Shown piece by piece: positions 38,000 through 62,479 of a DNA stretch of 64,000 bases. This DNA comes from a virus. Location of the stretch: IMG/VR virus record IMGVR_UViG_3300029267_003703, positions 21,448 to 85,447 of that record. One strand, 5' to 3'. The notes beneath the pieces are model-generated. The model saw only the letters and a list, made by a program, of their open reading frames with translations. It was not told the DNA's origin and searched no databases. The stretch's first letter is position 1. Each line of letters begins with the position of its first letter. Position numbers and translations under genes: made by a program.

Positions 38000-38000
38000 C

Positions 38001-40818: not shown

Positions 40819-40839
40819 GTGCTCCTCCTGGGCGGCCTA

Positions 40840-42965: not shown

Positions 42966-44413
42966 TTCTTCCCCTTGGTGCTCTTCTTGTTGCTGGGTGT
43001 ACGTTTGACCGACTCCAGTTGCTCCTTGAAGCTCTTGAGTGCGGCTGCTTCTGCGTCTTTCGACGATGGCTTTCTTTTCTTCTTCTTCTCTGCTGGTGAT
43101 TCGCCAGGGTCGTTCGCGTCGACCTCCTGAGCCTCACGCAGCTCTTTTTCTGTTACCCTTTCTTTGAAGTAGAAGTCCGTGGCCGGAACTCCTCCGATGC
43201 GGAAGCCAGGCAGGTCCCATTCACGGGAGCCCGCTATGCCCATCATGCAGGTGTTCTGGCTCCGGTCCTCGACCTTCTCGTTGACGACTCGGATGGCCGC
43301 AGTGGCGTCTTGACTGAAGGCGTCAGAGAATGCGAGCTCGTCGAGCTCCGCCATCTTGTGCCCAGCCGCTTTGCGGTTGGCCTGGCTCGTGGCAACGAAT
43401 GGGATCCCTAGCCGCAGTTGGAGGTCGCGAGCTTGTCTCGAGATTGCTTGGACCCGAACGTTGTCGCTGACGGCCCGCTTGTGGCCAGAGCTCATCAGGT
43501 AGATGCCGTCCACGTAGACGATGTGCGGCTTGTACTTGCTGACCTTCGCACCGAGCCACGCGATGGTGTCGCCGCCTTCGGACACGTCCTTGCCGGCCAG
43601 GCAGATGAGACGGTCGCTGTGTTGAATCTGCTGCGACAGGTCTCGTACCGCCCGGAAGTTGGCTCGGTCCTCTTTGGTCAGCTTGCCCCTGCGGAGCTCT
43701 CGGTATGGGACCTCTGCGAGACAGGCGGCGACGCGTTTGATGATGTTCTCGGGCGTCATCTCCTTGGTGTAGACCAGGATGTTGAGCCCCTGTGTGAAGT
43801 GGAAAGCGATGAGGTACGACAGGATCCACGACTTCATACTCTTGGGTCGGCCGTAGATGATGACGTAGTCGTCGTGCCACAGGCCGAGCGACTCCTCTTG
43901 GATGGCTTCCCAGGGCCACTTGATGGGCGACTCCCCGAGTCCTTCCTCAGCCAGGCAGTACTTCTCGTAGATGGTGTTCATAGCGGCCCCGAACGTGACG
44001 TCCTTGTTGGAGCCGTCGCTGATCTCCATGAGGATCTGCGTCTGCCTGTTGAGGTTGGAGATGGCTTCCAGGGGACTGACGTCGAGGTTGCCGAGTGCCA
44101 GCTCCATGGACTGCCTTGCTTGAACGGTGACGCGGTTGGTCCTGACCATCAGGCACAGGGACGCGGTCGTCATGCCGGGGTCGTCGCAAAGCACGAACGT
44201 GGGAAGCAGGGCCTTGAGCGTGTTGGGGCCGATGACCGAGCCCGCCGACTCTTGGAAGAAGCTGTACAGGTGAGTGAACGTGCCCCTACCCAGGTCGGTC
44301 TGGAAGTCTTCGTGGTTGATGCCCCACTCCAGCACCTCGGCCAAGTTCCCGGTGCTGATGATCCTGCTTAGGAGCTGCAACTCTACATGGTGCAGCCCTC
44401 CGCTCGATTGCAT
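42962..44413 (-). CDS. dnaB: DnaB-like replicative helicase
   Basis: A 483-residue RecA-fold SF4 helicase. The N-terminal helical domain (residues 1-150) is followed by the ATPase with Walker A YGRPKSMKSW, Walker B HIVYVDGIYLM, an EMTPENIIKRVAAC helix, and a Gln-x-x-Arg arginine-finger-type region near ATSQANRKAAG. The C-terminal tail is long, Lys-rich and charged (residues about 415-483), probably disordered and DNA- or partner-binding. It would unwind the fork with the adjacent primase. Ribosome site GAGGAGGGG precedes ATG 44413. Confidence 0.9.
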   Translation of the reverse strand: MQSSGGLHHVELQLLSRIISTGNLAEVLEWGINHEDFQTDLGRGTFTHLYSFFQESAGSVIGPNTLKALLPTFVLCDDPGMTTASLCLMVRTNRVTVQARQSMELALGNLDVSPLEAISNLNRQTQILMEISDGSNKDVTFGAAMNTIYEKYCLAEEGLGESPIKWPWEAIQEESLGLWHDDYVIIYGRPKSMKSWILSYLIAFHFTQGLNILVYTKEMTPENIIKRVAACLAEVPYRELRRGKLTKEDRANFRAVRDLSQQIQHSDRLICLAGKDVSEGGDTIAWLGAKVSKYKPHIVYVDGIYLMSSGHKRAVSDNVRVQAISRQARDLQLRLGIPFVATSQANRKAAGHKMAELDELAFSDAFSQDATAAIRVVNEKVEDRSQNTCMMGIAGSREWDLPGFRIGGVPATDFYFKERVTEKELREAQEVDANDPGESPAEKKKKRKPSSKDAEAAALKSFKEQLESVKRTPSNKKSTKGKK

Positions 44414-44425
44414 TCATACCCCTCC

Positions 44426-44746
44426 TCACAACGGCTTCGTCCCGTCGTTGAAGTGCGCGCCGAGGTCCGCCGGCGGGCCGCCGATCGACGAACCTTCCCC
44501 AGCTTCTTCCCCTCCTTCGAAGGTGACGCTGGCCATGTAACGCTCGATGGAGTCTCGCAGGGCCAGCACCTTTTCCCTGACGTCGGGAGATGAGAACTGG
44601 GTGACCGTGGTGGTGGCGTAAGTGGCGCCGTCCTTAGTGTTGATGAGCTTCGCCTCGGCGCGAATGTCCATGGCGGCGTCCGTCAGCAAGTCGACCTTGA
44701 TGGACGTGACCGCCAGCGCGTCGGCCTTTAGCGTTCCTTGGATCAT
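44426..44746 (-). CDS. Hypothetical protein, 106 aa
   Basis: A 106-residue protein starting at ATG 44746 after CAGGAGGCAGAGCG. The first half is beta-rich (LKADALAVTSIKVDLLTD, then RAEAKLINTKDG) and a helix follows (DVREKVLALRDSIERYM) with a Gly/Pro-rich acidic tail. No family recognised. It is related in style to the next gene upstream, which also starts with short strands; both lie between UDG and helicase genes. Confidence 0.55.
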   Translation of the reverse strand: MIQGTLKADALAVTSIKVDLLTDAAMDIRAEAKLINTKDGATYATTTVTQFSSPDVREKVLALRDSIERYMASVTFEGGEEAGEGSSIGGPPADLGAHFNDGTKPL

Positions 44747-45066
44747 CGCTCTGCCTCCTGCGCCTGCCAGACACGGGCAGGCAGCTCCTTGGACAGCTTC
44801 TGAAGACCGTCGCGGGCGAAGTGCTGGGCAATGGTCAGGCCGGTGGCGTAAGCCTGTTCGATGGCCTTGGTCGTCTGGTTGCAGTGCAGCTTTACTGCCA
44901 CCGAGCACTTCGCGTAGCCGAATGGCAGGTTGTAGCCGGCCGTGACCGTGACCTCCGCTGGCGGCCCGTCGCCTACGTCAATCAGGTCAGCCATGAGGGC
45001 GCCACCGAGCACTTCGTGCAGAGTCCGGCCGTCCTCGTACTCGAAGACACGTTCAGCTTCTACCAC
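44743..45066 (-). CDS. Hypothetical protein, 107 aa
   Basis: GTG 45066 is chosen, overlapping the upstream stop (GTGGTAG); sequence further upstream in this frame is a shadow of the neighbouring gene. The 107-residue product contains VTVTAGYNLPFGYAKCSVAV, a strand pair, then a helix ending in RDGLQKLSKELP. The AGYNLPFGYAKCSV pattern and helix give it the look of a small alpha/beta protein. No family recognised. Confidence 0.55.
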   Translation of the reverse strand: MVEAERVFEYEDGRTLHEVLGGALMADLIDVGDGPPAEVTVTAGYNLPFGYAKCSVAVKLHCNQTTKAIEQAYATGLTIAQHFARDGLQKLSKELPARVWQAQEAER

Positions 45067-45524
45067 GGCAGCACCGCCTTCTTGGGCTTGGAGTAGTTGG
45101 GGGTGTACGTGAGGACTTGGTCCTGCACGTCGGTGGGGACTTCCCCCTGGTCGACGAGCATGAGGAACGAGTCCTTGGGCATCTCGTGGTGTTCGCGCTT
45201 GAACACCTTGCCGCGCCACGTTTCGAACTGCTTCTTGCCGACGAGCTCGAAGCACCTCTCGTGGTCGATCTTGATGGTGAAGTGCTTGAACGAGAAGTCG
45301 GAGAAGCTCACGCCCATCCCCGTGTCCGCGCACTTGACCCGCAGCTCCTTGTCCACCGCCTCCACCGCATCGTTGTAGCGGTCGACGATGCTCGCGTAGA
45401 CCTCGAACAGCTCCCGGTGCATCTCACGGAAGCTCTCGAGCTCCTCCTTTGCGTTGAGGTACTGCTGTCCGCTCGAAAGCTCGGACGCTTCAATCGTGAT
45501 CGTCTTCTTCCTCTTGACCGACAT
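45060..45524 (-). CDS. Hypothetical protein, 154 aa
   Basis: ATG 45524 follows GAGGAGATACCT. The product begins with a basic stretch (SVKRKKTITIEASE), followed by a helix-rich domain (EELESFREMHRELFEVYAS) and a beta-rich C-terminus (FKHFTIKIDHERCFELVG). No catalytic motif seen. It overlaps the uracil-DNA glycosylase gene by 35 bases and is part of the replication operon. Confidence 0.55.
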   Translation of the reverse strand: MSVKRKKTITIEASELSSGQQYLNAKEELESFREMHRELFEVYASIVDRYNDAVEAVDKELRVKCADTGMGVSFSDFSFKHFTIKIDHERCFELVGKKQFETWRGKVFKREHHEMPKDSFLMLVDQGEVPTDVQDQVLTYTPNYSKPKKAVLPW

Positions 45525-46365
45525 AGGTATCTCCTCTTGGCGCGAACTCACCCTTTGATTCAATCTGGTGTCGCTTGTAGATCTCAGCTGCGAAAGAGAC
45601 CGCGTTGTACATCTTGACGGCGGCGGCATCCTCCAAGTCGTGCTCCGATTCTCGAGTTGAACGAAGCACCCATGCGGGGTGCACAGTTGGAATGCACAGG
45701 TACTCCACCTGACGCTGGATGACCGGCAGAGACACTTCGCCTTTCGTCTTTCGAGTCCATGCGTTCTTCTTCGCCGTCAGGCTGGGCAGGTAGGTTGCTC
45801 CTGGTATGTGAATCGATCTGGGTGCCCCGTTTTCCTTGGTGATGGTGATGGGCTTGCCGGTCAAAAACTCTGTGGCCACGGCCCCTAGCGTGACGATGAC
45901 GACCGGGTCGACCTTGTAGATCTCCTGGTAGATACGAGGCGCGCACGCCTTCATGTGAACGGAGGTGGGAGGAGAGTCCTCCCAGGCGATCTGTGGGGGG
46001 TCCTTCGACCCCGGGGGTCGCCGCTCGAACATGACGTTGCCGTCCTTGTCGAGCTTCTCCACGCAGCTTCTGCATGCCACGATGTTGGTGATGTAAGAGA
46101 TGTCCTTGATGTGGAGCATGGAGAGCGTCTGCCGCAGCAGCTTGCCGGACGGGCCCACGAACGGGCGGCCGGTTCCTTCCTCCACGAACCCAGGACCCTC
46201 TCCGATGAACATGATGCCACCGGGGCGGCCCTCTCCCTCGACGAAGCAGCGACGGAGAGCCAGCCTCCGCGCGCCGAGAGAGCACTTGGTGCAGTTGCTC
46301 CACTCCTCCGATAGCTCTTTCAAGCTCTTTCGGAAGTCTGGAACGAACTCTCGTTCTTCCGCCAA
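45490..46365 (-). CDS. udg: Uracil-DNA glycosylase, family 4 (Fe-S type)
   Basis: A 291-residue protein. It has the Fe-S cysteines CTKC (25, 28), ACRSC (near 99) and KACAPRI (near 141), the uracil-pocket motif GEGPGFVEEGTGRPFVGPSG, and motif HPAWVLR near residue 235. These are the marks of family 4 UDG, which removes uracil from DNA. The start is TTG at 46365, supported by AAGGAGGTGAGGC. A phage with both dCMP deaminase and UDG probably uses ordinary thymine DNA and repairs uracil, though a role in host DNA attack is possible. Confidence 0.9.
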   Translation of the reverse strand: MAEEREFVPDFRKSLKELSEEWSNCTKCSLGARRLALRRCFVEGEGRPGGIMFIGEGPGFVEEGTGRPFVGPSGKLLRQTLSMLHIKDISYITNIVACRSCVEKLDKDGNVMFERRPPGSKDPPQIAWEDSPPTSVHMKACAPRIYQEIYKVDPVVIVTLGAVATEFLTGKPITITKENGAPRSIHIPGATYLPSLTAKKNAWTRKTKGEVSLPVIQRQVEYLCIPTVHPAWVLRSTRESEHDLEDAAAVKMYNAVSFAAEIYKRHQIESKGEFAPRGDTYVGQEEEDDHD

Positions 46366-46401
46366 GCCTCACCTCCTTGGATCTAGTTTCTGTTTGGTGT
46401 C

Positions 46402-48171
46402 TTATGGCCGGTCTACGGCGCGGATGATGTCGTAGTAGTACGGCCCTCCTTCGTCGACTGGCCACTCACGTAGGTGCCTGCGCAGGTTGTGGCAGATGTT
46501 GTGCATCAGCGAGACGTCGTCTTCGAAGATCTCGATGAGCGGCTCTTTCTTCTCCGGCTTCATGCGCAGCGCCCGCCCCATCACCTGCTGAATCCAGCCC
46601 TTCTGCGAACCGGGCTCGAGGATGACGACGGTGTCCAGCTCTTGGCTGTCGAGTCCTTCTCTGCCGTACTTGGCGATGGAGAATGTGATCTGCTTGTCGT
46701 GCAGCATCGCCAGCCGGGTCTCACGCGGGACGTCGTGAATCATCAACCCGGCGTTCGAGTTGTGCCGCATCGCCTCTTTGAGGTAGGCCTCCTGCCTGTT
46801 CTTCAGGATGTTGTCGAGCCGTCGCCTCGCGGAGTCGCAGGCCATCTTGCCCGCTACCCTGTCGAGCTCCCGGCGCTGCCGCTCGGGCAGCAGGGTCGGG
46901 GTGACCTCGAGCTGGGCGCGTAGCTTTTTGATGGCCTTCTCCATGTCCTTTACGGTCTTCACCCGCATCTCTCGGTCCTCTTTGCTCGGCATGAAGGACA
47001 GGAAGCGTTGCAGGGTTCGAATGACGGACAGCTTGTCCCTCTTGTCGAGCGAACACGCCTCCTGCACGTTGGCTGGCGGGTCGAGCTCCTCGAGGGTGGG
47101 CTCGGGAATGTCGGAGTAGAACGTGCCGAGACCGTTCCAAAGCGACAGCAGGTTGACCAGCTCCTCGATGCTGTTGGACAGCACGAGAATCTTCCTGCCC
47201 TCGTCGAGAAGCTCCCCGATGCGGTTGAGGACGAAGTGAAGGCGGTCCGGCCAGCGTCCGAAGAAGCCGGCCAGCATGCCATAGTGCAGCTCCCCCCGGG
47301 CGTCGTAGATCTGTTGAACGACCGAGGGGTCCGCGGTGTTGGGGGCAAAGCCCGTCTCACGGAAGTTGATGTGAGGTTTCAGGTCTTGCGCCAGGTTCTT
47401 GTAGAGCACGGGGCCGACGTGCAGCTCCTGCACGATGTGCATGCCGTCCTTGCGCTCGGGGGTGGCGGTGAGACAGTACCTCCGGCCGTAGAACAGGTTG
47501 GCCGTCTTCGAGAATGTCTCGGCGCCGATGTGGTGGCCCTCGTCCCAGATGATGACGCCGAAGTACCGCCGGAACTCTTCCGAGAACCGGTCGGCCTTCT
47601 GCGACAACGTCTGGTAGGTAGCCAGAACGATGGGGTGCTCCCAGTCGAACTTGCTGCCCTCCACGCGCCCCACCCCGCCAGGCACGTCGAGGAACTCTTC
47701 GATGGCCGCCGCCCATTGGTCGAGCAGCGTGCTGTTGTCGACGATGATGATCGCTGGAACCTTCAGCTGGGCGATGAGCTCGAGGGCGCAGACCGTTTTG
47801 CCCTTGCCGCACGCCAGCTGAAGGACGCCGCCCCTTGCGAGCAGCATGTTCTTGACGGACTGGCGCTGTGTGAAGTCCTTGCGGTCTCGCCAGTCCAGGA
47901 TGATGCGGCTGCTGACTTCCGTTTGTTCGAAGGAGGAAGGTCGGCAGTCGACGATGTCGAAGTCGCGGGGCCGGTTGTACCTCCAGAACTCCCGGGGCAC
48001 GATCAAGTGGTGCTCCGTTTCGACGTAGAGCTTGTAGTACTTGATCGTCGTCGTGCCCGGGGAGTCGAAGGTGAGCGCCCGCTTGGTGCCCTCGACGTTC
48101 AGAACCTCCTTAGGTACCCAGAGATCGGAGTCCAGGTACCCCTTACCGCGCTCCCTCCTTACGGCCCTCAT
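46402..48171 (-). CDS. SF2 DNA helicase/translocase, UvsW/XPB-like
   Basis: A 589-residue protein. Motif I is LACGKGKT, Ia IIIVDNSTLLDQW, II DEGHH, III LTATPERKDG, V DTVVILEPG and VI QQVMGRALRMK, in the order of DExH-type SF2 helicases related to UvsW and XPB. A zinc-free helical insertion of about 130 residues (residues about 390-470) sits between motifs III and V. Such enzymes remodel forks and branched DNA or clear RNA. It overlaps the next gene upstream as ATGA. Confidence 0.9.
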   Translation of the reverse strand: MRAVRRERGKGYLDSDLWVPKEVLNVEGTKRALTFDSPGTTTIKYYKLYVETEHHLIVPREFWRYNRPRDFDIVDCRPSSFEQTEVSSRIILDWRDRKDFTQRQSVKNMLLARGGVLQLACGKGKTVCALELIAQLKVPAIIIVDNSTLLDQWAAAIEEFLDVPGGVGRVEGSKFDWEHPIVLATYQTLSQKADRFSEEFRRYFGVIIWDEGHHIGAETFSKTANLFYGRRYCLTATPERKDGMHIVQELHVGPVLYKNLAQDLKPHINFRETGFAPNTADPSVVQQIYDARGELHYGMLAGFFGRWPDRLHFVLNRIGELLDEGRKILVLSNSIEELVNLLSLWNGLGTFYSDIPEPTLEELDPPANVQEACSLDKRDKLSVIRTLQRFLSFMPSKEDREMRVKTVKDMEKAIKKLRAQLEVTPTLLPERQRRELDRVAGKMACDSARRRLDNILKNRQEAYLKEAMRHNSNAGLMIHDVPRETRLAMLHDKQITFSIAKYGREGLDSQELDTVVILEPGSQKGWIQQVMGRALRMKPEKKEPLIEIFEDDVSLMHNICHNLRRHLREWPVDEGGPYYYDIIRAVDRP

Positions 48172-51042: not shown

Positions 51043-52066
51043 GTTCGACGAGAACACCATGCGCGGCTTCATCGAGGAGATGGAGAAGCAGGCTCTCACA
51101 GGAAACCAGGTGCTCGGGCTGGCCACGGGCACCGGCGCGGCGCTCGGAGGTCTTTGGCAGGGGGGCAAGGCGTACCGAGAGGCCAAGCAGCAAGGTGCCA
51201 GCACTTCGGAGGCGTTGCAGCAGGCGGGCAAGAAGGGCCTGATTGGTGCGGGCGCCGGTGCGGCGATTGGTGGGGGACTTGGGGGCATCAGCAAGCTGCG
51301 TAAGGGCAAGGGGCTGTTCACCATGCCCAAGTCCTCCCCCATCATGGGGGGCCAGGTCATCGACCCCGGCAAGTCGCTCGCTGAGTTCGGCGGGCATGTC
51401 GGGCACATCTGGACGGGCAAGGGCAACGTTCGCAGTTTCGGCGGGGGAGCCGTGCCCGCCATAAAGGCGGAGTCTGAAGCGGCCAAGGCACTGGAGAAGG
51501 TCCGACAGGCCCCGGTGGGCGAGGTGAAGGATCCTCGGTTCCTATCCTCCATTCGAGGAAAGATCTCTCCCGCTGAGACCAAGCGGCTGGCTGAGGAGAA
51601 GGCTCAGAAAGCGCTGACAGCAGCTCAGGCCAGGGCCAAGGCAATGGAGCGGGCGGAGAAGGCAGGTCTCACCAGCATCCCAGGCACCCTCACCGGTATT
51701 GCGCGGGACCCTCGAGGAACTGCCGGCGCGTTCGGTGACTACATTCGGACCATGAGCGGGGGAGAAAAGGCATTCGCTCTTGGCTTCCCTGCTGCCTTTG
51801 CCGGCATGGGGGCGCTGGCTCCGGAGGAGGGGCAGAGCAGGCTCGGCGGAGCTCTGTCAGGCGCGGCATCGAGCGTGCCGTGGATGATGCCGTGGATGCC
51901 CAAGAGCTTCGCCATGACCATGCTGCCCGGGTCCTCGTCCATCATGCCTCAGATGGCCCTTGGCCGCCCCTTGGAGATGGCGGGCAGCGCTGCCGGTAAC
52001 GCAGCGACCTCGGGATACCGTCGGGTCGCCGGCGCGGTTCAGCCGCCGGAGGAACAGGGTAGATGA
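51035..52066 (+). CDS. Hydrophobic putative internal virion protein
   Basis: A 343-residue protein. It begins with NTMRGFIEEMEKQALTGNQV, which carries the EKQA motif shared with the neighbouring gene. Two long Gly/Ala-rich hydrophobic stretches follow (residues about 22-45 and 68-90), then charged helices (ETKRLAEEKAQKALTAAQAR). Such Gly/Ala-rich, membrane-compatible proteins in head operons may be ejected with the DNA or line the portal. It overlaps the portal gene as ATGA. Confidence 0.6.
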   Translation: MPEFDENTMRGFIEEMEKQALTGNQVLGLATGTGAALGGLWQGGKAYREAKQQGASTSEALQQAGKKGLIGAGAGAAIGGGLGGISKLRKGKGLFTMPKSSPIMGGQVIDPGKSLAEFGGHVGHIWTGKGNVRSFGGGAVPAIKAESEAAKALEKVRQAPVGEVKDPRFLSSIRGKISPAETKRLAEEKAQKALTAAQARAKAMERAEKAGLTSIPGTLTGIARDPRGTAGAFGDYIRTMSGGEKAFALGFPAAFAGMGALAPEEGQSRLGGALSGAASSVPWMMPWMPKSFAMTMLPGSSSIMPQMALGRPLEMAGSAAGNAATSGYRRVAGAVQPPEEQGR

Positions 52067-54090
52067 GCTTCTTTTCAGGAGGACTGCAGGGGGTGGCCAC
52101 GGGGCCCGGTTCGGGGCTGCGCTTTGCGTCTACCCGAGGTCGGATTCAGGGCAGCCCGTCGAACGGGATGAACTACCCGAGCCCGTTCTTCGACATCGGG
52201 CACACGTACCTGCCGGTCACGGTCAAGGCGCTGCTCCGCTGGTGCCGGTACTACTTCATGACGAACCCGCTGCTCAATGCGGGCACGTTCAAGATGGCCG
52301 AGTATCCGGTGACCGACCTGCTCATCGAGCACGAGAACCCCTCGGTGCAGAAGCGGTGGTCAGAGTACTTCCACGAGCACTTCATGTACCCGGCCTTCCA
52401 GATCGAGGTGGGCCTGGACTACTTCACGTACGGCAACGCGTTCATCACGATCTACTACCCCGTGCGCAAGTGGCTCAAGTGCAGGCAGTGCGGCCATCAG
52501 GACCACGAGGCGGACCTTCGGTCGAACTACATCTTCACCAACTTCGAGTTCCGCCTGACGTGCCCGCGCTGTGGGCACGTGGGGACCGCTGACGTCAAGC
52601 AGCAGTACCTCAAGAACGCCAGCGAGATCCGACTCGTTCGGTGGAACCCCGAGGATGTGGAGATCGACGTCAACGACATCACCGGCGCCGTCGACTACTA
52701 CTACATCATCCCGCCGATGATGAAGAACGACATCACGGTGGGCAAGAAGAGTGTGGTCGGGGAGATCCCGCAGATCTTCATCCAGGCTGTGCGAGAGAAC
52801 AAGGGCGTGAAGTTCGCGCCCGACAACTTCTTCCACCTCAAGCGGCCGAGCCTCGCCAACCTAGACCGGGGTTGGGGCACTCCGCTGCTTCTGCCCGTGC
52901 TCAAGGACGCCTACTACCTGCAGATCATGAAGAAGGCGCAGGAGGCGATCCTGCTCGAGCACATCATCCCGCTGCGCATCCTGTTTCCGCAGGCCGGCAG
53001 CGCGAGCTCGGACCCGTACACGACGATCAACCTCACTCAGTGGCGGGAGCACGTCGCCGGCGAGATCGCTCGGTGGAGGTACGACCCGAACTACATTCCC
53101 GTCATGCCGCTGCCCGTGGGGCACCAAACGCTGGGCGGTGACGGCCGGGCCCTGTTGCTGTCCGGTGAGATCCAGCAGTGGAGTGACCACTTGGTGGTCG
53201 GCATGGGCGTCCCGCGGGAGTTCATCTTCGGTGGCATGAGCTACGCTGGCACCAACGTGTCGATGCGGATGCTCGAGAACGCGTTCCTTCGATACATCAG
53301 CCGGCACTTGGCGCTGTCGAAGTTCGTGATGAAGTCCGTGTCCAAGTACATGGATTGGCCCGAGGCCACGTGCAAGTTCAAGCCCTTCAAGATGGCCGAC
53401 GACCTCCAGCGCAAGATGTTCCTGCTCAACGTCAACGCGCAGGGCAAGATCAGCGACACTTCCTTCCTGGCCGAGTGCGACTACGACCAGTCGGAAGAGA
53501 ACAAGATCATGCTGCGCGAGAACAAGGAGCGCCTCGAGGCCCTCAAGGACCAGCAGGTTGCGCAGGCCGAGGCGCAGGGCGAGGCCATGCTCGTCAACGC
53601 TAAGTACCAAGCGAAGATGCAGCAGGTCATGATGCAGGCACAGCAGGCGCCCGTCGCCCCGGGCGAGCCGGGCGGCCCCGAGCAACAGATGCAGGGCGGA
53701 GGTCCTGGCGGGCAAGGAGCCATGGGCGAACCAATCCCCGGGGGCCAGCCCGCCGAACAGGCGCAGCCCCAAGCGCAGCAGGCCGAGCAGGGCTACTTCC
53801 AGCAGCAGGTCGGCAGCCCGCTCAACATGGGCCAGGACATGCAGTCGAACCAGATGATGAACATCGATCTGCCATCGATGGCGATGCAGCAGGCCCGCAT
53901 GATCACCCAGCTCCCGCCCGAACAACAGCAGACCGCCATCCAGAACCTCGAGCAGCAGTCCCCCGAGCTCGCCGAGCTCGTGCGCCAGTACCTCACCCAA
54001 CTCCAGCCGCAAAGCGGAGGCGGGGGCGTCGACATGCGCCCGCAACCCAACGTGTACCCGGAACGGCGCGAGACGCCGATGGTGACTTAG
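52063..54090 (+). CDS. Portal protein with inserted zinc ribbon
   Basis: A 675-residue protein. The core resembles phage portal proteins: LLNAGTFKMAEYPVTDLL, RGWGTPLLLPVLKDAYYLQ, and the PREFIFGG segment with long helix SMRMLENAFLRYI. Portals are dodecameric DNA channels at the head vertex. Unusually, residues about 139-175 carry CRQCGHQ and CPRCGH, a four-Cys zinc ribbon inserted in the wing region. The last 170 residues are Gln/Met/Pro/Gly-rich low-complexity sequence. Assignment as portal rests on pattern and neighbours; a related structural protein is possible. Confidence 0.65.
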   Translation: MSFFSGGLQGVATGPGSGLRFASTRGRIQGSPSNGMNYPSPFFDIGHTYLPVTVKALLRWCRYYFMTNPLLNAGTFKMAEYPVTDLLIEHENPSVQKRWSEYFHEHFMYPAFQIEVGLDYFTYGNAFITIYYPVRKWLKCRQCGHQDHEADLRSNYIFTNFEFRLTCPRCGHVGTADVKQQYLKNASEIRLVRWNPEDVEIDVNDITGAVDYYYIIPPMMKNDITVGKKSVVGEIPQIFIQAVRENKGVKFAPDNFFHLKRPSLANLDRGWGTPLLLPVLKDAYYLQIMKKAQEAILLEHIIPLRILFPQAGSASSDPYTTINLTQWREHVAGEIARWRYDPNYIPVMPLPVGHQTLGGDGRALLLSGEIQQWSDHLVVGMGVPREFIFGGMSYAGTNVSMRMLENAFLRYISRHLALSKFVMKSVSKYMDWPEATCKFKPFKMADDLQRKMFLLNVNAQGKISDTSFLAECDYDQSEENKIMLRENKERLEALKDQQVAQAEAQGEAMLVNAKYQAKMQQVMMQAQQAPVAPGEPGGPEQQMQGGGPGGQGAMGEPIPGGQPAEQAQPQAQQAEQGYFQQQVGSPLNMGQDMQSNQMMNIDLPSMAMQQARMITQLPPEQQQTAIQNLEQQSPELAELVRQYLTQLQPQSGGGGVDMRPQPNVYPERRETPMVT

Positions 54091-54533: not shown

Positions 54534-55160
54534 TTACTTTTGCGTCCACAGATCCATTACCTGTTCGGCCATCAGAGCCATGCAGCTCAGGCACATCAGC
54601 TCCATGGACTCTTCTTCGTCGAAGTGCCCGCCCATGTCGCTAGAAGGAGTTCGGCCGTCCGGGGGAAGCGGCTCCATGGTTCCGTAGACGGCGCGGATCA
54701 TGGGCTCACCGTCCACGGGTCTTTTGCAGAAGTCGCAGAAGATGGGAACGTCCGGATCCTCTATCTCTTGCGGGTCTGCGGGCTGAAGCCCTAGCTCCTT
54801 CCTCACCTCCTGTATGGCGAACTGGAGCTCGTCGACCAGGCTGCTCCACACGTCGAACGGAAGCATCTCCTCCAAGACCTCCCATTCGTCTTCTCCAACG
54901 TCATCCTCCATACCGTCGATCAGGTCGTATGGCTCCTGGTTGGAGACGATGAAGGAGGGGACCATCGGCTCGTCCCCGTTCATCCAGTACTCGCACATGA
55001 TCGTCAGATCGAGGTCCACGTACGGGATGACCCCGTCGAGTCGGACCACTTCCCAGCCGAGCGGGATGTCCCTGTCCGATCCTCTGCAGATGTGGCCGGA
55101 CGGCACGGGGCTCAGAACAAGGCTTGGGTCTCGGTACCTGTCGGGGAAGGTCATCGCCAT
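54534..55160 (-). CDS. Hypothetical protein with C-terminal zinc-knuckle
   Basis: A 208-residue acidic protein. ATG 55160 follows GGAGAAG, with a second in-frame ATG two codons later. A beta-rich N-terminal half (WEVVRLDGVIPYVDLDL) precedes a helix and a C-terminal part with CDFCKRPV and CLSCMAL, two Cys pairs about 48 residues apart, a possible zinc site. No family recognised. It overlaps the upstream gene by 10 bases. Confidence 0.6.
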   Translation of the reverse strand: MAMTFPDRYRDPSLVLSPVPSGHICRGSDRDIPLGWEVVRLDGVIPYVDLDLTIMCEYWMNGDEPMVPSFIVSNQEPYDLIDGMEDDVGEDEWEVLEEMLPFDVWSSLVDELQFAIQEVRKELGLQPADPQEIEDPDVPIFCDFCKRPVDGEPMIRAVYGTMEPLPPDGRTPSSDMGGHFDEEESMELMCLSCMALMAEQVMDLWTQK

Positions 55161-55750
55161 TGTATCTTCTCCAGTTGGACTCGGGCCCAGCGCTTGTTGA
55201 CGGTCTCGAGTCGCGGGTCGGGGGACATCCCGGTCTCCAGGTCCGCGTCCCACATGAGCGTGAGCAGCTCCTCGTAGTCGAGGCCGTTGATGTGCAGGTG
55301 GCGGGTGATCTCCATGCCTTCAGGCAAGGGCATGCCGCCGTACTCCTCGCGGGCGCCCCACTCCAGGCGGAGCAGGTCGTCCTGCAGGTCGTCGGGTTCG
55401 GCGGTGATGCCGACCCAGTTGAAGTCGTCTTGGGGTAGGTAGGGGGAACCCAACCAGTGGCACCACTGGCCTGGCTGCGCGATCTCCATCAGCACCTCGA
55501 GGTCCCGCTGGTTGCAGAACGACGTGATGCCGAAGTTGTCGATCAGCCAGGCCCGCACGCCTCCCAGAGCCCTTCCGGATGGGAGGTAAAAACCAACGAT
55601 CTCCCACACCCGGTTGAGGTACTCGACCTTTTCGCCGATGGCGTCGAACATGGGAGCCGTGGTCGGGTCGCCGGGCACGAGTTCGATTAGCCTCGTACCC
55701 GGCAACGCCACTGGTGGGCTCGCATACACGTTCGCGAGCCCTCCGTTCAT
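55151..55750 (-). CDS. Hypothetical protein, 199 aa
   Basis: A 199-residue acidic, Trp-rich protein (WEIVGFYLPSGRALGGVRAW, QWCHWLGSPYLPQDDFNWVG). No domain recognised. Its ATG overlaps the stop of the upstream gene by one base (TGATG). Codon use is like neighbouring genes. Confidence 0.55.
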   Translation of the reverse strand: MNGGLANVYASPPVALPGTRLIELVPGDPTTAPMFDAIGEKVEYLNRVWEIVGFYLPSGRALGGVRAWLIDNFGITSFCNQRDLEVLMEIAQPGQWCHWLGSPYLPQDDFNWVGITAEPDDLQDDLLRLEWGAREEYGGMPLPEGMEITRHLHINGLDYEELLTLMWDADLETGMSPDPRLETVNKRWARVQLEKIQWR

Positions 55751-55911
55751 CAGTCGTCGTCTCCTTCCTCGTCCTGGTCGTCGTCCTCGTGCCAGGCTGA
55801 TTTTTTAGGGTCGAAGCCGGCCTCCTTGATGTCCTCCTCCCGCTCTCCGAAGAGAGAGGTGAAGGACTCCTGCGCGATTCGGGCCATGTCATTCAGCTTG
55901 CTGGTGGACAT
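55750..55911 (-). CDS. Short acidic protein, 53 aa
   Basis: ATG 55911 is preferred over an upstream in-frame start (56010) because AAGGAGATTGAG precedes it. The 53-residue product has a helical N-terminus (TSKLNDMARIAQESFTSLFG) and a strongly acidic C-terminus (EDDDQDEEGDDD), much like phage scaffold or anti-repressor tails. No family recognised. It is divergent to the RNA polymerase gene. Confidence 0.5.
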   Translation of the reverse strand: MSTSKLNDMARIAQESFTSLFGEREEDIKEAGFDPKKSAWHEDDDQDEEGDDD

Positions 55912-56013
55912 CTCAATCTCCTTGTCGGAGGGCCACCTCCTGACCCTCCGGTTAGAGGGGAAGGGCGCGTACTTCGTCCCTTCAAGGCTCTTATGCCTGC
56001 GATCACGCACTCC

Positions 56014-56043
56014 TTGCCGCCGCTTCAGCCTGCGCGGTACAGT
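56014..56043 (+). promoter_or_regulatory. Sigma70-like promoter for the RNA polymerase gene
   Basis: TTGCCG (56014-56019), an 18-base spacer and TACAGT (56038-56043) with GG before it. ATG 56069 follows AGAGAGGAACAGG. The 157-base gap 55912-56068 holds no other recognisable feature. Host polymerase probably transcribes this gene first. Confidence 0.5.
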
Positions 56044-56068
56044 TGCGAGCAGTCCAGAGAGGAACAGG

Positions 56069-59000
56069 ATGGCGTACCTCGACCCGCAGGAAGCCTTCGA
56101 CCACTTCCAGAAGAAAGTAGTTGAGGGAGTAGAGCAACAGTTCCCGGTGAAGGGAAAGCAGCGCAGCCTTCACCTGGAGCGTGTGGAAGTTCCGGAGCCC
56201 CCTAGCCCGGACGACATCAAAGCGCAGCAGCAGGCGAAGATCGACGGCAAGAGCTGGGGCGTGCCCGTGTACGCCCATCTGACCCTCAAGGACAACGCCA
56301 CCGGCAAGATCGTGGACAAGCGCAAGGTGCGCGTCGCCGAAGTCCCGATGATGACGAAGCGCTACAGCTACATCGTCGGCGGGCAGGAGTACCAAGTCGA
56401 CAGCCAGTGGCAGCTCAAGCCGGGGGCGTACACCCGCCGCAAGCAGAACCAGCAGCTCGAGACGCAGTTCAACACGACGGGCCCCGGTTCCAAAACGTTC
56501 CACTTGAACTTCCACCCCGACAAGAAGCAGTTCACGGTACGGTGGAACAAGGCGGATATCCCGGCGTACCCGATCCTCAAGACGCTTGGGGTCACTGACG
56601 AGCAGCTCAAGAAGTCCTGGGGTGAGGACATCCTCGACGCCAACAAGAACGCCCGCGGAGTGGACGGGGCGCTCGCCGCGCTGTACCGCTCGGATCGGGG
56701 GCGCAACCCTGAGAACATCGAGCAGGCCAAAGAGCATCTGTGGGACACACTCCAAGCGTCGAAGATGGACAAGAGTGCCACGCACATGACGCTCGGTCGT
56801 CCCTTCGAGCATGTGAATGGCGACGCGCTGCACATCGCGTCCAAGCGCCTGCTCGACGTGCAGCGAGGCGGCGGCGAGGATGATCGTGACAGCCTGGTGT
56901 TCAAGAGGCTCCGTACGGCTGGCGACTTCGCCCTCGACAAGATGAACAGCCAGAAGTGGGCCGTGCAGAACAAGATGGCCAAGAAGCTCGACACGGCGCA
57001 GAGCGTGCGCGACGTCGTGAAGTTCGAGCACTTGAACACGGCGGTCCACAAGACCTTCAGCGAGAATCAGGCGTCGCGCGTTGCCAGCCAGATCAATCCG
57101 CTCGAGATGGTCAGCTCCTCGATGCAGACCACGGTCATGGGACCGGGCGGCATCCAATCCGAGCACGCCGTCATCGACCAGACGAAGTGGATCAACCCTT
57201 CGCAGTTCGGCTTCCTCGACCCGATCAACACCCCCGAGGGCCCGAAGACCGGCGTCACCCTGCGGCTGCCCATGGGCGTGCGCAAGAAGGGGGACGAGCC
57301 CCGCATCGCCTTGACGAACATGCAGACGGGCAAGACCGAGTTCGTCTCCCCGGGCCGAGCCATGCAGGAGAACGTGCTGCTGCCTGACCAGGTCGAGTGG
57401 AAGGATGGCAAGCCAAACCCGATCAATGGCAAGAAGTCGAAGATCTTGGGGCCGGGCAACGAGCTCCAGGTGGGCGACGCCAGCAAGGCGAAGTACGTCA
57501 TGCGGCACCCCACGCAGGTGTTCAACATCACCTCGAACATGATCCCGTATCTGCATTCGACGCAGGGTAACCGTGCAGGCATGGCTTCTCGCCACCTCGA
57601 ACAGGCGGTGAGCCTCGAAGGAAGGCAGGCCCCTCTGGTGCAGGTAGCCACGGGCGCGGGCAAGGGCCCGTACGACACGTTCGAGGGAATGGTCGGGGCC
57701 ATGTCGGGGCACCAGTCCCCCATCGACGGGACGGTGGAGAAGGTCACCAAGGATGGCATCCACATCAGGGGCAAGGACGGGGTCAAGCACACCGTTCAGC
57801 TGTACAACCACTACCCGCTCAACGACGTGAAGAGCACCATGCACTCCGAGCCGCTGGTCAAGCCCGGCGACGTGGTGAAGAAGGGGCAGCACATCGGGGA
57901 CACGAACTTCACGAAGGACGGCAAGCTGGCCCTCGGCACCAACCTGCGAGTCGCGTACGCCCCGCTCAAGGGCTACAACTTCGAGGACGGCGTGGTCATC
58001 AGCGAGTCCGCGGCGAAGGCCATGAGCTCGGTGCACATGACGAAGCACTCGTTGGCGGTCGAGCCGGACATGAACTTCGACCCCAAGAGGTTCCGTGCGT
58101 TGCACGCCGGTACCTACAAGACCGAACAGCTCGATAAGGTGGGGGAGGATGGCGTGGTCGCCGTTGGTACCCGGGTCAAGCCCGGTGACCCCCTCGTGCT
58201 CGCCACGCAGCCCTTCAAGATCAAGGATCGAACGGGCATCGGCGCGTGGAAGAAGAACATGTCGGGCGTGCATACCGACAAGAGCGTGAAGTGGGACGGT
58301 GACTACGAGGGAGAGGTCGTTGGCGTGCACCGTAAGGGCAAGAGCGTGCAGGTACACGTGCGCACAGTCGAGCCCATGCAGGTGGGCGACAAGCTCAGCG
58401 GCCGGTACGGCAACAAGGGCATCGTCACCAAGATCCTCGACAACAGCCAGATGCCGCGCACCAAGGACGGCAGCCACGTCGAGGTGATGCTCAACCCGGC
58501 AGGCATCCCCGGGCGCATCAACCCGTCGCAGGTCTTCGAGACCGTGGCGGCGAAGGTGGCCGACAAGACGGGCAAGCCCATCGTCGTGCAGAACTTCAAG
58601 CCTCACGTGGACCAGCTGCAAGAGATCAAGAACTTGGCCAAGGCGCACGGGGTGAGCGACACCGAGGAGCTGTACGACCCAGAGACCAACCAGAGCCTCG
58701 GGCAGATCCTCACCGGCAAGCAGTACATGCTCAAGTTGGTGCACCAAGTAGAGAAGAAGGGCGCGGTGCGCTCTGGCATGTCGCTGCCCGGCACGGACCC
58801 GGAGTCGTACGACCGCAACCTGCAACCCACGGGCGGCGGGCATCACGGCGGGCAGAGCATGGGCTCTCTTGGCATGTACGCCATGCTGGCCCACGGGGCC
58901 AAGGCCAACATCCGAGAGATGCAGACGTACAAGAGCGAGGGCCCAGACCCCGCGCCGGCGGAGGCCAAGAAGTGGAAGAGTCAGCACAACGAGGTGTGGC

Positions 59001-62000
59001 AAGCCATCCAGAACGGCTCCCCTCTTCCCCCTCCGAAGCCCTCGTTCGCCTTCTCGAAGTTCAACGACTACCTGAAGGCGTCGGGCGTCAACATGGAGAA
59101 GAACGGGCATCGGTTCGTGCTGACGCCGATGACCGACAAGCAGATCAGGGACATGAGCGCCGGCAAGCTGCCGAAGCCGGACCGCAAGCTCAGCTACAAG
59201 CTCGACAAGGACGGCAACCCTATGCCCGTGAAGGGTGGGCTGTTTGACGAGCGCATCACCGGCGGGCACGACGGCAAAAACTGGTCGCACATCGAGCTCG
59301 CTGAGCCCATCCCGAACCCCGTGTTCGAGGCCCCCGTACGCGCGCTCACCGGGCTGACGCAGAAGCAGTTCAACGATGTCATGGCCGGCCGCGCCGGCGT
59401 CACCCCTGGCGGCGCCTTCACGGACAACCCCCGAGCAGGGCTGACTGGCGGGCACGCCATCAAGAGCATGCTCAAGAAGGTGGACGTGCAGGCTGACCTC
59501 GAGCGCGCCAAGGCCGAGCTCAAGAGCACGCCCAAGACCAAGGTCGACGCCACGCTCAAGAAGGTCAAGTACCTCGAGGCGCTCAATCGGACTGGGCACA
59601 CGGCTGAGGAGGCGTACATCCTGCACAACCTGCCCGTCATTCCTCCGAAGCTGCGCCCCGTCTCCATCCTTCCGGACGGCAGCCTCAACGAGGCGGACTT
59701 GAACGGGTTGTACTCGGACTTCGGCCAGCTCAACGCGCAGATGGGTGACCCCGTCATTCGCAACAAGCTGCCGGAGGAGCGTAAGGCAAACCTGCGGGGC
59801 GCTTACTACGACGGCGTCAAGGCGCTCATGGGCATCGGCATTGCCCACAAGGACCAGAAGCAGAAGGGCCTGCTCAACCAGATCCACGGCCCTGAGCCGA
59901 AGAAGGGGTTCTTCCAGAAGACGCTGATGAATCGCCGGCAGGACCTGACGATGCGCTCGACCATCGTGCCCGAGCCCTCCCTGGGCTTGGATGAGGTGGG
60001 CATCCCAGAGCACTACGCCATGGACCTGTTCCGTCCCTTCGTCGTCAAGCAGCTGGTGCAGTCCGGGTCGGCTAAGTTCGACCTCGACGCGCACAAGATG
60101 ATCAAGGCGAACGATCCTCTCGCGAAGAAAGCACTCGAGCGGGTGATGGACGACAAGCCGGTGCTACTCAAGCGCGACCCTGCGCTGCACAAGTACAACG
60201 TGCAGGGCTTCAAACCGCGGCTCGTCGAGGGCAAGGCCATCAAGATCCACCCCCTGACGTGCTCGGGCTACAACGCGGACTTCGACGGCGACACCATGAG
60301 CGTGTACGTGCCCATCTCTCGGGAAGCCGAGGCTGAGGCGCACAAGATGATGCCCTCGAACAACCTGTTCAGCGACTCGACGGGTAAGGTGATGTACCAG
60401 CCGACGCACGAGTCCGCGCTCGGTCTGTACAAGCTCACGCGCGTCGACAAGAAGACGAACAAGACCTTCGCAAACCCGGGTGACGCCATCAAGGCCGCGC
60501 AGGCCGGCAAGATCGGGGTGACGGATCTGGTCAGCATCAAGGGTACTGGGCAGACGACGGCGGGGCGCCTTCTGGTGGCCGCCGCGCTTCCGCAGGACAT
60601 GCAGAAGCAGATCGTCAACGACCACAAGTTCGTGCTCGACAAGAAGGGCCTCAACACGATGCTCACGACGCTCGCCAAGCAGAGCGGAGGACTTCAGGAG
60701 GGGCAGCGCAACACGTACGGCCAGTACGTCGACAGGCTCAAGGATCTGGGCAACGGCGCCGCGTCGGGCATGGCCCCCGTTTACTTCGACAAGTCCCCGG
60801 GCAACAACGTGCTCGACCCCAAGAAGCAGCAGTTCGTTCGCATGGACGCGCACACGCTCAACCTGAACGACCTGTCGCCTGACAAGGCCACGCGCGACCG
60901 CATCCTTGCTGACACGCAGAAGAAGGTGGATGCAGTCGGCAAGATGAGCCTCTCGCAGGCCGAGAAGGATCGGCGTGCGGTCGATCTGTGGACGCAGGCC
61001 GACAAGACGATGGGCATGGCCCACAAGCGCAAGATGATGCAGAAGCCTAACAACCTCGGCATCATGAACATGAGCGGCGGCAAGCCGAACTGGGACCAGT
61101 ACAAGCAGTTCACCCTGGCTCCGATGCTCGTAACCGACACCTCAGGCAAGACCGTGCCCATTCCCGTCGACAAGAGCTTCAGCGAGGGGCAGGACGTCTC
61201 GGGCTACTGGGTCGGCATGTACGGAGCTCGCATGGGCGCCGTGCGCAAGGTGCAGGAGGTGCAGGAGCCAGGCGTCATCACCAAGGCCATGCAGAACACC
61301 ACGATGGACAACCTCATCGTGGACCACGACTGCGGGACGACTGGAGGAGTGTCGCTCAACGTCCACGACCGCTCCATCGAGGGCCGGCACCTTGCCAGCG
61401 ACTTCAAGCACGGCAAGTTGCACGTGCCGGCGGGTACCGTGCTGAGCCCCGACATCATTGGGCAGATCCGCTCTGTGAAGAAGGACGCGAATCTCGTCGT
61501 GCGCAGCCCGCTCAAGTGCCAGCACGAAAAGGGCATGTGCCAGAAGTGCATGGGCATCGGCCCCGACGGCAAACACTATGAGGTGGGCACGAACGTGGGC
61601 GTCATGGCGGCGCACTCGCTGGGGGAGAAGACGACGCAGATGATGCTCAACTCCTTCCACACCGGCGGCGTGGCCACGGGCCGCAAGGACCCGTTCGAGC
61701 AGTTCAAGCAGCTGGTGAACCTGCCGGAGAAGGTACCGAACGAAGCGACCCTCGCCGTGCGTTCGGGCACCATCACCAAGGTCGAGCCCCACAAGCTGGG
61801 GGCGTACGTGTACATCGATGGGCAGCCCCACTTCGTCGGCCGTGACCGTGGGGGCAAACCGCTGAACGAGTCGCTTCCGGTCCCCGGCTTCAGCTACGTG
61901 CCTTGGCAGCCGCCGAAGGCAGGGATGAAAGTCAAGGCGGGGCAGATCCTGAGCGACCCCAACCGCACGACGATCAACCCTCACCACCTTCATCAGGCCA

Positions 62001-62479
62001 CGGGCAAGATCGACGTCGTGCGCAACCACCTGTCCAACGAGATCTACGGGCTGTACAAGGACCACGGCGTGGACCGCAAGCACGTGGACGTGCTCGTGAA
62101 CTCCATGACGTCGACGACGAAGGTTGTGGACCCGGGCGGCTCCGACGTGCTGCGCGGCGAGTACCGCAACACCAACTGGGTCAAGAACCAGAACAAGCTG
62201 CTTCGGGCTCAGGGCCAGCCCACCGTGCAGCATGCTCCGATCCTCAAGGGGATCAACGAGATGCCCCTGCACATGCGCGAGGACTGGATGGCCAAGCTCC
62301 AGCACCAGAAGCTCAAGCAGACCATCCTCGAGGCCGCGGCCACTGGCGGGTCCACCAGCCTGCATGGCCCGCACCCCGTGCCGGGCATGGCCTACGGCGC
62401 CGAGTTCGGCATGACCTCCAAGGACGCGCTGCGCCCGGGCAAGTCCCACCTCAAAGACGTCGAACCCTACCACTACTGA
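56069..62479 (+). CDS. rpoBC: Fused RNA polymerase beta-beta' subunit (single chain)
   Basis: A 2136-residue polypeptide in which a complete bacterial-type beta is followed directly by beta'. Beta landmarks: NTPEGPKTGV (near 388), GYNFEDGVVISE (near 635), GDKLSGRYGNKG (near 773) and GGQSMGSLGMYAMLAHGA (near 927). Beta' begins near 1020 (MTDKQIRDMSAG) and has DLNGLY (near 1210), RRQDLTMRSTIV (near 1290), the catalytic NADFDGD (Asp1404, Asp1406, Asp1408), a zinc site at Cys1755/1817/1824/1827 and the trigger-loop region LGEKTTQMMLNSFHTGG. It is shorter than E. coli beta plus beta' (2749 residues) and lacks the N-terminal beta' zinc finger. It should transcribe phage genes with host or phage partners; no alpha or sigma gene was recognised here. 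Confidence 0.95.
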   Translation: MAYLDPQEAFDHFQKKVVEGVEQQFPVKGKQRSLHLERVEVPEPPSPDDIKAQQQAKIDGKSWGVPVYAHLTLKDNATGKIVDKRKVRVAEVPMMTKRYSYIVGGQEYQVDSQWQLKPGAYTRRKQNQQLETQFNTTGPGSKTFHLNFHPDKKQFTVRWNKADIPAYPILKTLGVTDEQLKKSWGEDILDANKNARGVDGALAALYRSDRGRNPENIEQAKEHLWDTLQASKMDKSATHMTLGRPFEHVNGDALHIASKRLLDVQRGGGEDDRDSLVFKRLRTAGDFALDKMNSQKWAVQNKMAKKLDTAQSVRDVVKFEHLNTAVHKTFSENQASRVASQINPLEMVSSSMQTTVMGPGGIQSEHAVIDQTKWINPSQFGFLDPINTPEGPKTGVTLRLPMGVRKKGDEPRIALTNMQTGKTEFVSPGRAMQENVLLPDQVEWKDGKPNPINGKKSKILGPGNELQVGDASKAKYVMRHPTQVFNITSNMIPYLHSTQGNRAGMASRHLEQAVSLEGRQAPLVQVATGAGKGPYDTFEGMVGAMSGHQSPIDGTVEKVTKDGIHIRGKDGVKHTVQLYNHYPLNDVKSTMHSEPLVKPGDVVKKGQHIGDTNFTKDGKLALGTNLRVAYAPLKGYNFEDGVVISESAAKAMSSVHMTKHSLAVEPDMNFDPKRFRALHAGTYKTEQLDKVGEDGVVAVGTRVKPGDPLVLATQPFKIKDRTGIGAWKKNMSGVHTDKSVKWDGDYEGEVVGVHRKGKSVQVHVRTVEPMQVGDKLSGRYGNKGIVTKILDNSQMPRTKDGSHVEVMLNPAGIPGRINPSQVFETVAAKVADKTGKPIVVQNFKPHVDQLQEIKNLAKAHGVSDTEELYDPETNQSLGQILTGKQYMLKLVHQVEKKGAVRSGMSLPGTDPESYDRNLQPTGGGHHGGQSMGSLGMYAMLAHGAKANIREMQTYKSEGPDPAPAEAKKWKSQHNEVWQAIQNGSPLPPPKPSFAFSKFNDYLKASGVNMEKNGHRFVLTPMTDKQIRDMSAGKLPKPDRKLSYKLDKDGNPMPVKGGLFDERITGGHDGKNWSHIELAEPIPNPVFEAPVRALTGLTQKQFNDVMAGRAGVTPGGAFTDNPRAGLTGGHAIKSMLKKVDVQADLERAKAELKSTPKTKVDATLKKVKYLEALNRTGHTAEEAYILHNLPVIPPKLRPVSILPDGSLNEADLNGLYSDFGQLNAQMGDPVIRNKLPEERKANLRGAYYDGVKALMGIGIAHKDQKQKGLLNQIHGPEPKKGFFQKTLMNRRQDLTMRSTIVPEPSLGLDEVGIPEHYAMDLFRPFVVKQLVQSGSAKFDLDAHKMIKANDPLAKKALERVMDDKPVLLKRDPALHKYNVQGFKPRLVEGKAIKIHPLTCSGYNADFDGDTMSVYVPISREAEAEAHKMMPSNNLFSDSTGKVMYQPTHESALGLYKLTRVDKKTNKTFANPGDAIKAAQAGKIGVTDLVSIKGTGQTTAGRLLVAAALPQDMQKQIVNDHKFVLDKKGLNTMLTTLAKQSGGLQEGQRNTYGQYVDRLKDLGNGAASGMAPVYFDKSPGNNVLDPKKQQFVRMDAHTLNLNDLSPDKATRDRILADTQKKVDAVGKMSLSQAEKDRRAVDLWTQADKTMGMAHKRKMMQKPNNLGIMNMSGGKPNWDQYKQFTLAPMLVTDTSGKTVPIPVDKSFSEGQDVSGYWVGMYGARMGAVRKVQEVQEPGVITKAMQNTTMDNLIVDHDCGTTGGVSLNVHDRSIEGRHLASDFKHGKLHVPAGTVLSPDIIGQIRSVKKDANLVVRSPLKCQHEKGMCQKCMGIGPDGKHYEVGTNVGVMAAHSLGEKTTQMMLNSFHTGGVATGRKDPFEQFKQLVNLPEKVPNEATLAVRSGTITKVEPHKLGAYVYIDGQPHFVGRDRGGKPLNESLPVPGFSYVPWQPPKAGMKVKAGQILSDPNRTTINPHHLHQATGKIDVVRNHLSNEIYGLYKDHGVDRKHVDVLVNSMTSTTKVVDPGGSDVLRGEYRNTNWVKNQNKLLRAQGQPTVQHAPILKGINEMPLHMREDWMAKLQHQKLKQTILEAAATGGSTSLHGPHPVPGMAYGAEFGMTSKDALRPGKSHLKDVEPYHY

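Follow-up and report, generated by a model that had tools for sequence, protein, structure and literature searches.

The landmarks of both large subunits of bacterial RNA polymerase occur in a single reading frame of an uncultured phage, which raises the question of whether this locus encodes a complete bacterial-type core enzyme in one chain and how a phage might use it. The DNA analyzed here (the window) is a 64,000-nucleotide stretch, positions 21,448 to 85,447, of IMG/VR record IMGVR_UViG_3300029267_003703, an incomplete linear fragment of 85,447 b.

The open reading frame begins at an ATG at position 56069 and ends with a stop codon at 62479, giving a product of 2136 aa. Pfam domains follow in the order Rpb2 domains 3 and 6, then Rpb1 domains 1, 2, 3, and 5 (lowest E value, 4e-53), with Rpb1 domains 1 and 3 scoring below Pfam's own cutoff. 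A phmmer comparison with bacterial beta' gave an E value of 1e-98, and the protein is readily detectable with beta/beta' profiles, with strong matches in both Pfam and PDB, at roughly 20 to 30% identity to bacterial beta and beta'. Individual residues were assigned by mapping onto Salmonella beta/beta' (Table 1). The initial annotation, made from the sequence alone, had described a beta-beta' fusion joined near residue 1000-1030, and the coordinates, domain order, and residue mapping all agree with it, placing the joint at about residues 1011-1020. The linker is nearly nil, and residues 1-23 of beta' are gone.

TABLE 1 Positions in the window of the polymerase gene, its landmarks, and neighboring features
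Feature	Position	Strand	Basis
Portal protein homologue upstream of polymerase	52063..54090	+	31% identity to the portal protein gp204 of Arash (E 8e-89)
199-aa ORF behind divergent promoter	55151..55750	-	44% identity in a relative; no Pfam match
Small acidic ORF, 53 aa, first after divergent promoter	55750..55911	-	No Pfam match
Promoter-like element CGGCAAGGAGTGCGTGATCGCAGGCATAAGAGCCTTGAAGG	55979..56019	-	24.6-24.7 bits, top score in window
Single-chain RNA polymerase, beta fused to beta'	56069..62479	+	Pfam, phmmer, ~50 single-ORF relatives
Beta moiety, residues 1-1014	56069..59110	+	Salmonella beta alignment; model; Foldseek
Beta active-site lysines K775 and K783, GDKLSGRYGNKG	58391..58417	+	Salmonella mapping
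Beta/beta' joint, residues 1011-1020	59099..59128	+	Salmonella mapping
Beta' moiety, residues 1015-2136, without N-terminal zinc ribbon	59111..62476	+	Salmonella mapping; model; Foldseek
Catalytic metal-binding loop NADFDGD, residues 1402-1408	60272..60292	+	Salmonella mapping
Bridge helix, residues 1710-1745, predicted helix	61196..61303	+	Model, Salmonella mapping
Second beta' zinc site C1755, C1817, C1824, C1827	61331..61549	+	Salmonella mapping
Trigger-loop region, helices 1843-1864 and 1875-1884	61595..61720	+	Model, Salmonella mapping

Across 30 aligned sequences, both active-site lysines are unchanged, ADFDGD is constant, and three of the four zinc-site cysteines are invariant, the fourth almost so. 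The NADFDGD loop and the complete four-cysteine site noted initially are thus both present; the site, however, corresponds to the second zinc of beta' (E. coli residues C814/C888/C895/C898), and the N-terminal zinc ribbon (C70-C88) was not found by residue mapping, which shows it to be lost from the orthologous enzyme of Salmonella phage Arash as well. Structure prediction, proposed as a check and run on two overlapping halves of the protein, returned bacterial subunits as the top Foldseek matches: beta for the first half (pLDDT 79.9; E value, 3e-65) and beta' for residues 985-2136 (pLDDT 80.6; E value, 3e-63). Taken together, it is nearly certain that this frame is a complete bacterial-type beta-beta' fusion with its active-site, bridge-helix, trigger-loop, and second-zinc motifs intact. 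A 1363-aa antisense ORF at 56003-60094 was set aside as a probable GC-rich shadow frame with no independent support.

A chain of this kind in a linear fragment from an uncultured phage could in principle come from misassembly or sequencing error joining rpoB to rpoC. About 50 IMG/VR relatives from many metagenomes, however, carry the polymerase as a single chain with an identical joint in a single frame, so the fusion is not a chimera, and we regard an artefact as negligibly probable. The full-length relatives are each one ORF, at roughly 40 to 57% identity. Recent capture of a host rpoBC, followed by fusion in the phage, would fit the plainly bacterial-type sequence and its recognizable identity to bacterial subunits, yet that identity is low beside the values among the relatives that share the fusion, and the zinc ribbon is missing from both the source phage and Arash. 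No relative was confirmed when 84,980 species genomes were scanned with the alignment of the fused clade. In trees of 43 to 45 rows, bacteria form a group separate from the phage polymerases (SH-aLRT 100), the bacterial references being mostly Proteobacteria in a limited sample without archaea or any fused bacterium. Recent capture is therefore very unlikely, and the phylogeny bears out the earlier suggestion of a distinct phage lineage, outside any sampled host rpoBC clade.

Within the phages, the fused lineage is sister to a clade containing Arash and Vibrio phage D69, in which beta' is split at one or two internal points while the beta/beta' joint is kept. Indeed, the joint is fused in every relative that covers it, split-gene relatives included; since it stays fused though beta' is broken at two other points, it would be a constrained feature. 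In the tree, the fused rows make up one group, the two-gene rows another, and the three-gene rows a third, and a single clade of fused plus two-gene rows is rejected (p-AU 5e-6). These groupings argue against the single chain being a late re-fusion of the split forms rather than their ancestor, as does the homing endonuclease gene that interrupts the polymerase gene of D181; moreover, because bacterial beta' is unsplit, breaks in an ancestral single chain require fewer events. The root, on the other hand, rests on a long branch to bacteria that the tree tool flagged, and we consider late re-fusion improbable, though well short of negligible. With the same enzyme present as one, two, and three genes, the lineage offers a clean case of core-enzyme gene fission. 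Each of 13 records, the partial source record among them, has a single match to the beta catalytic domain, giving no sign of a second such enzyme.

Which partners might this core use? The initial annotation had recognized neither alpha nor sigma nearby. For alpha this stands: PF01193 found none in five records, including the complete Arash genome, while 13 of 14 control genomes were positive, although a diverged alpha might slip past this profile. For sigma it does not, as a sigma70-like gene lies on the same contig, 12 kb to the left of the window (G000:8738-9607). This gene, a homologue of Arash gp10, was recovered by comparison with Arash and with the PHROG family of sigma factors; a search with PF04542 alone recovered no sigma, and Pfam did not detect sigma region 2 in it. 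Among 13 records from the lineage, 12 carry a match to sigma. Omega (PF01192) was not found above the cutoff in eight records, which gave two weak sub-threshold matches.

Sequence analysis also identified a promoter-like motif of the lineage, GCAA-N17-GGnATAAGA. The strongest site in the window lies immediately before the polymerase gene in divergent orientation, with a predicted start near 55983, and a divergent motif occupies the same place beside 26 of 34 relatives' polymerase genes (permuted mean, 0.37; about 0.4 expected). Upstream of genes in one related genome (G002), the motif occurs 17 times against 1.3 expected, and it ranks as the first or second hexamer in five of six fused-clade genomes. 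The sequence GGTATAAG occurs in Arash and in a three-gene relative as well and was not found in two control phage stretches; D69 has only a weaker TATAA signal. The source contig holds few copies besides its one strong site. Raw intergenic k-mer counts were ambiguous, and ATAAGAA survived controls; CTTGTAC was dropped as a candidate, its occurrences falling mostly within coding sequence.

Evidence on where such an enzyme might act comes from Arash; comparison of two genomes showed genes for sigma and for portal, capsid, terminase, and baseplate proteins in common with it. Mass spectrometry of purified Arash particles detected both polymerase chains and sigma gp10, one of the chains topping all virion proteins in spectra, whereas the other Arash sigma, gp196, is missing from the virion table (PMC10585845). 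Per residue, the published spectra amount to 2.31 for gp206, 2.00 for gp216, 2.00 for gp10, and 1.51 for the portal protein (PMC10585845). The authors caution that abundant enzymes may merely co-purify, 116 proteins having been detected (PMC10585845).

That caution leaves room for a polymerase that stays out of the virion: it would be made during infection to serve middle or late genes, and early transcription from the ATAAGA promoters would fall to host polymerase. The motif resembles the sigma70 -10 element and so might be used by the host enzyme, and the polymerase gene lies beside that for the portal, with the motif absent from its own strand upstream. However, fused-clade genomes show no enrichment of TATAAT or TTGACA, the same GGnATAAG variant recurs in both sister clades, and the Arash chains and gp10 rank with the strong signals of the virion, at similar spectra per residue. 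We judge this alternative unlikely.

The best explanation, and a probable one, is instead a one-chain, alpha-less polymerase that is packaged in the virion with a phage sigma and reads early genes. A complete bacterial-type core would be made as one polypeptide without alpha, would probably pair with the phage's own sigma70-like factor, and would probably be packaged together with it, by analogy with Arash. The packaged enzyme would enter the cell along with the DNA and transcribe early genes from GCAA-N17-GGnATAAGA promoters, including the divergent one behind its own gene. In assembly, the covalent joint may do some of what alpha does in bacteria. The most specific version, a two-protein holoenzyme of beta-beta' chain and sigma in which the joint replaces alpha and which is both packaged and dedicated to the lineage-specific promoter, we advance tentatively, as somewhat doubtful in its entirety. 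The system is attractive because a full-size bacterial-type polymerase that aligns readily is here a single chain, apparently lacking alpha and omega, and comes with candidates for its sigma and its promoter, while a cultured Salmonella phage relative already has the parts in its virions; alpha-free assembly and minimal sigma-dependent initiation are now testable with two purified proteins.

The closest known systems are Arash (gp206 plus gp216) and Vibrio phages D69 and D181, which share about 31 to 34% identity with the fused polymerase over most of its length. As in the source phage, the joint lies at the same point, no alpha was found, sigma-like factors are present, and the portal gene is just upstream. 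They differ in that beta' is interrupted ahead of the region aligned with residue ~1497, hence their two genes (three in other relatives), whereas the source enzyme is uncut, and the active-site loop of Arash reads AADYDGD rather than NADFDGD. The mReC phages (Weinheimer and Aylward 2020, PMC7481178) are likewise tailed, with profile-detectable beta/beta' apart from those of bacteria; the text of that paper describes fusion only for crAss-like phages and leaves sigma unmentioned (PMC7481178). Their capsid family, PF07068, was found in none of 13 records, which is compatible with mReC membership since only eight capsid proteins were detected in the 97 published mReC contigs. Their terminase family, PF03237, gave weak matches in 10 of 13 records, three over the cutoff and none in the partial source record.

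The phiKZ-type polymerases resemble the source enzyme in their relation to cellular beta/beta' and in having neither alpha nor omega, and one version is packaged. They comprise, however, at least four or five chains in two sets with no recognizable sigma, and membership in that group was set aside for an enzyme of one chain and one set with a sigma. Helicobacter and its relatives have RpoBC fused in one chain, an enzyme that lies inside bacteria and works with alpha. The source enzyme is set apart by description, with no zinc ribbon, no alpha found, and a distinct phage lineage. Finally, crAss-like gp66, YonO, P23-45 gp64/gp96, and QDE-1 also carry both barrels in one chain, and some single-chain two-barrel polymerases are packaged (PMC10770324). 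These are far from beta/beta', in contrast to the source enzyme, which retains the majority of the bacterial domains and can be aligned over nearly its whole length. The fusion, earlier called unusual, is thus not a one-off, having about 50 relatives besides the cultured Arash and D69; because other single-chain viral polymerases such as the crAss-like enzymes and YonO were already known, what is new is its full-length bacterial-type form.

The 2,136-residue open reading frame (ORF) that the initial annotation had read as a beta-beta' fusion was recovered with exactly the same coordinates and length, and its identity as a single-chain RNA polymerase is as good as certain. Pfam beta domains precede beta' domains along the chain, a bacterial beta' is matched by phmmer (E = 1e-98), and mapping to Salmonella beta/beta' indicates that the beta lysines, NADFDGD, the bridge helix, the second zinc site, and the trigger loop are retained. 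At the joint, the beta C terminus (..KFNDYLKASGVNMEK) gives way within ~10 residues to a segment matching beta' from residue ~24 onward; by the same mapping, the beta' N-terminal zinc ribbon is missing both here and in Salmonella phage Arash. AlphaFold2 models of two overlapping halves, the modeling unit used in place of the whole chain, had mean pLDDT values of 79.9 and 80.6, with bacterial beta (E = 3e-65) and bacterial beta' (E = 3e-63) as best structural matches. These half models suggest that the intact fusion may form a closed active site.

An IMG/VR search yielded 56 related loci, some of them duplicate contigs of an earlier search, and the polymerase is one ORF, mostly of 2,060 to 2,190 aa, in all loci that span the gene. 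In-frame insertions, mostly of ~350 to 530 aa, occur in nine related polymerases, at the TPEG motif and NKGIVT/LNP region of beta and at the NADFDGD loop and trigger loop of beta'. All six inserts scanned matched homing endonucleases (LAGLIDADG in five) and two gave weak intein-splicing matches; polymerases bearing insertions are presumably inactive before splicing. One locus (L058) carries three insertions in an ORF of 3,259 aa.

The full fusion is absent from the sister group, recovered with Arash and Vibrio phage D69 as starting sequences, in which the polymerase occupies two genes (residues 1 to ~1490 and ~1497 to 2114) or three (with an extra break near residue 1115 to 1125). Both breaks fall within beta', and the beta/beta' joint is unbroken wherever the contig covers it. 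Because the joint alone is never broken, we infer that it may replace alpha. In Vibrio phage D181, a homing endonuclease gene additionally splits beta near residue 500.

In mixture-model trees of 1,898 to 1,927 columns, the fused, two-gene, three-gene, and bacterial sequences each formed one group, with support of 99 to 100 except for the two-gene group (85 and 51). The fused and split clades are sisters, with the bacterial sequences apart from both. Constraining fused and two-gene sequences together was rejected (p-AU = 5e-6). Since bacterial beta' is unsplit, parsimony favors a single beta/beta' fusion, with two later beta' breaks in the sister clade; depth and rooting are tentative, given that the branch leading to bacteria is long, as flagged by the tree tool, and that the cellular sequences sampled were all bacterial.

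The initial annotation had seen neither alpha nor sigma nearby. For alpha this held, with no match in five records searched, and nothing scored above the cutoff for omega in eight; for sigma it did not, as a sigma70-like gene lies outside the window on the same incomplete phage record (G000). Its product has hits to Sigma70 region 3 (E = 4e-9) and to structures of sigma factors (E = 2e-7), and it is similar to the Arash sigma gp10 (E = 3e-15). The PHROG sigma family was matched in 12 of 13 lineage records, and all 13 carry one beta catalytic domain each.

Features of the window and related loci (plain coordinates are window positions)
Feature	Position or loci	Strand	Basis or remark
Single-chain RNA polymerase, 2136 aa	56069-62479	+	ORF call, Pfam, phmmer
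Only strong motif site in window	55979-56019	-	75 nt behind polymerase start codon, pointing away
53-aa ORF	55750-55911	-	Strongly acidic tail; first ORF downstream of the divergent promoter-like site
Replication block	35390-48171	-	
Family A DNA polymerase	38761-40818	-	In replication block
DEAD/ResIII helicase	46402-48171	-	In replication block
Sigma70-like gene	G000:8738-9607		~12 kb left of window; Sigma70 region 3, sigma structures, Arash gp10
Intein-like in-frame insertions	L052, L055, L057, L058, L059, L068, L074, L075, L080		Homing-endonuclease domains
Beta' in two or three genes	L097-L136, L002, L003, L096		Sister lineage

The replication block also holds a Cas4-like exonuclease, a UvsX/RecA-like recombinase, a primase, a DnaB-like helicase, and a uracil-DNA glycosylase superfamily protein.

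De novo hexamer counts upstream of ribosome-binding sites ranked ATAAGA first or second in five of six fused-clade genomes (in the relative G002, 17 observed versus 1.3 expected), with no enrichment of TATAAT or TTGACA there; two unrelated phage stretches, used as controls, were without any signal. The consensus of 61 sites reads GCAA, ~16 to 17 bases, GG, one base, ATAAGA, and a pyrimidine-purine step ~10 to 11 bases further. By analogy to sigma70 promoters, this layout would correspond to a -35 element, an extended -10 element, and a start site, with G replacing the usual T at -7. Arash has TGGTATAAG at 27 sites, all but one of which share a strand; a three-gene relative has TTCAA..TGGTATAAGAA, and the signal in D69 is weaker. 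Of the 27 GGTATAA-type gene-upstream sites of Arash (L256 to L265), 26 are on the minus strand, against most structural genes, an orientation that early promoters would be expected to have.

The window's strong site faces the acidic 53-aa ORF and a 199-aa ORF. With polymerase-adjacent sites left out of the motif model, a motif 40 to 120 nt upstream on the strand opposite the polymerase was present in 26 of 34 relatives, a few of which are near-copies and not all independent, and on the polymerase's own strand in none of the 34. Permuted models gave a mean of 0.37 and a maximum of 3.

Mass spectrometry of Arash virions detected both polymerase proteins, gp206 (the top protein by detection, 3,516 spectra) and gp216 (1,210 spectra), and the sigma gp10 (467 spectra, 100% coverage), whereas the virion table does not list the other Arash sigma, gp196 (PMC10585845). 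Divided by length, these counts give 2.31, 2.00, and 2.00 spectra per residue, respectively, and 1.51 for the portal, values that, spectral counts being a crude measure, are compatible with a packaged complex of about equal parts. The authors name carry-over as an alternative to packaging (PMC10585845). A portal homologue (E = 8e-89) lies upstream of the window's polymerase, as in Arash. The Arash DNA helicase gp217 (L003:26136-27554), encoded directly after the beta' C-terminal gene, is another abundant virion protein, with 1,148 spectra; at E = 1e-3, the two fused-clade records compared yielded no homologue of it.

From homology to Arash and the motif, we propose that a virion-packaged one-chain core, together with a phage sigma, would carry out early transcription from the motif promoters. 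The weakest links are the user of the motif, which could be the host polymerase instead of the phage enzyme, and packaging in the window's phage, which would follow by analogy from that published for its relative. In searches of the open-access literature, we found neither a phage with a full bacterial-type beta-beta' fusion described, nor this promoter motif, nor the polymerase series of one, two, and three genes; the known kinds that the searches recovered are the crAss-type single-chain enzymes, the split phiKZ-type enzymes, and the clade of multimeric-RNAP-encoding Caudovirales (mReC).
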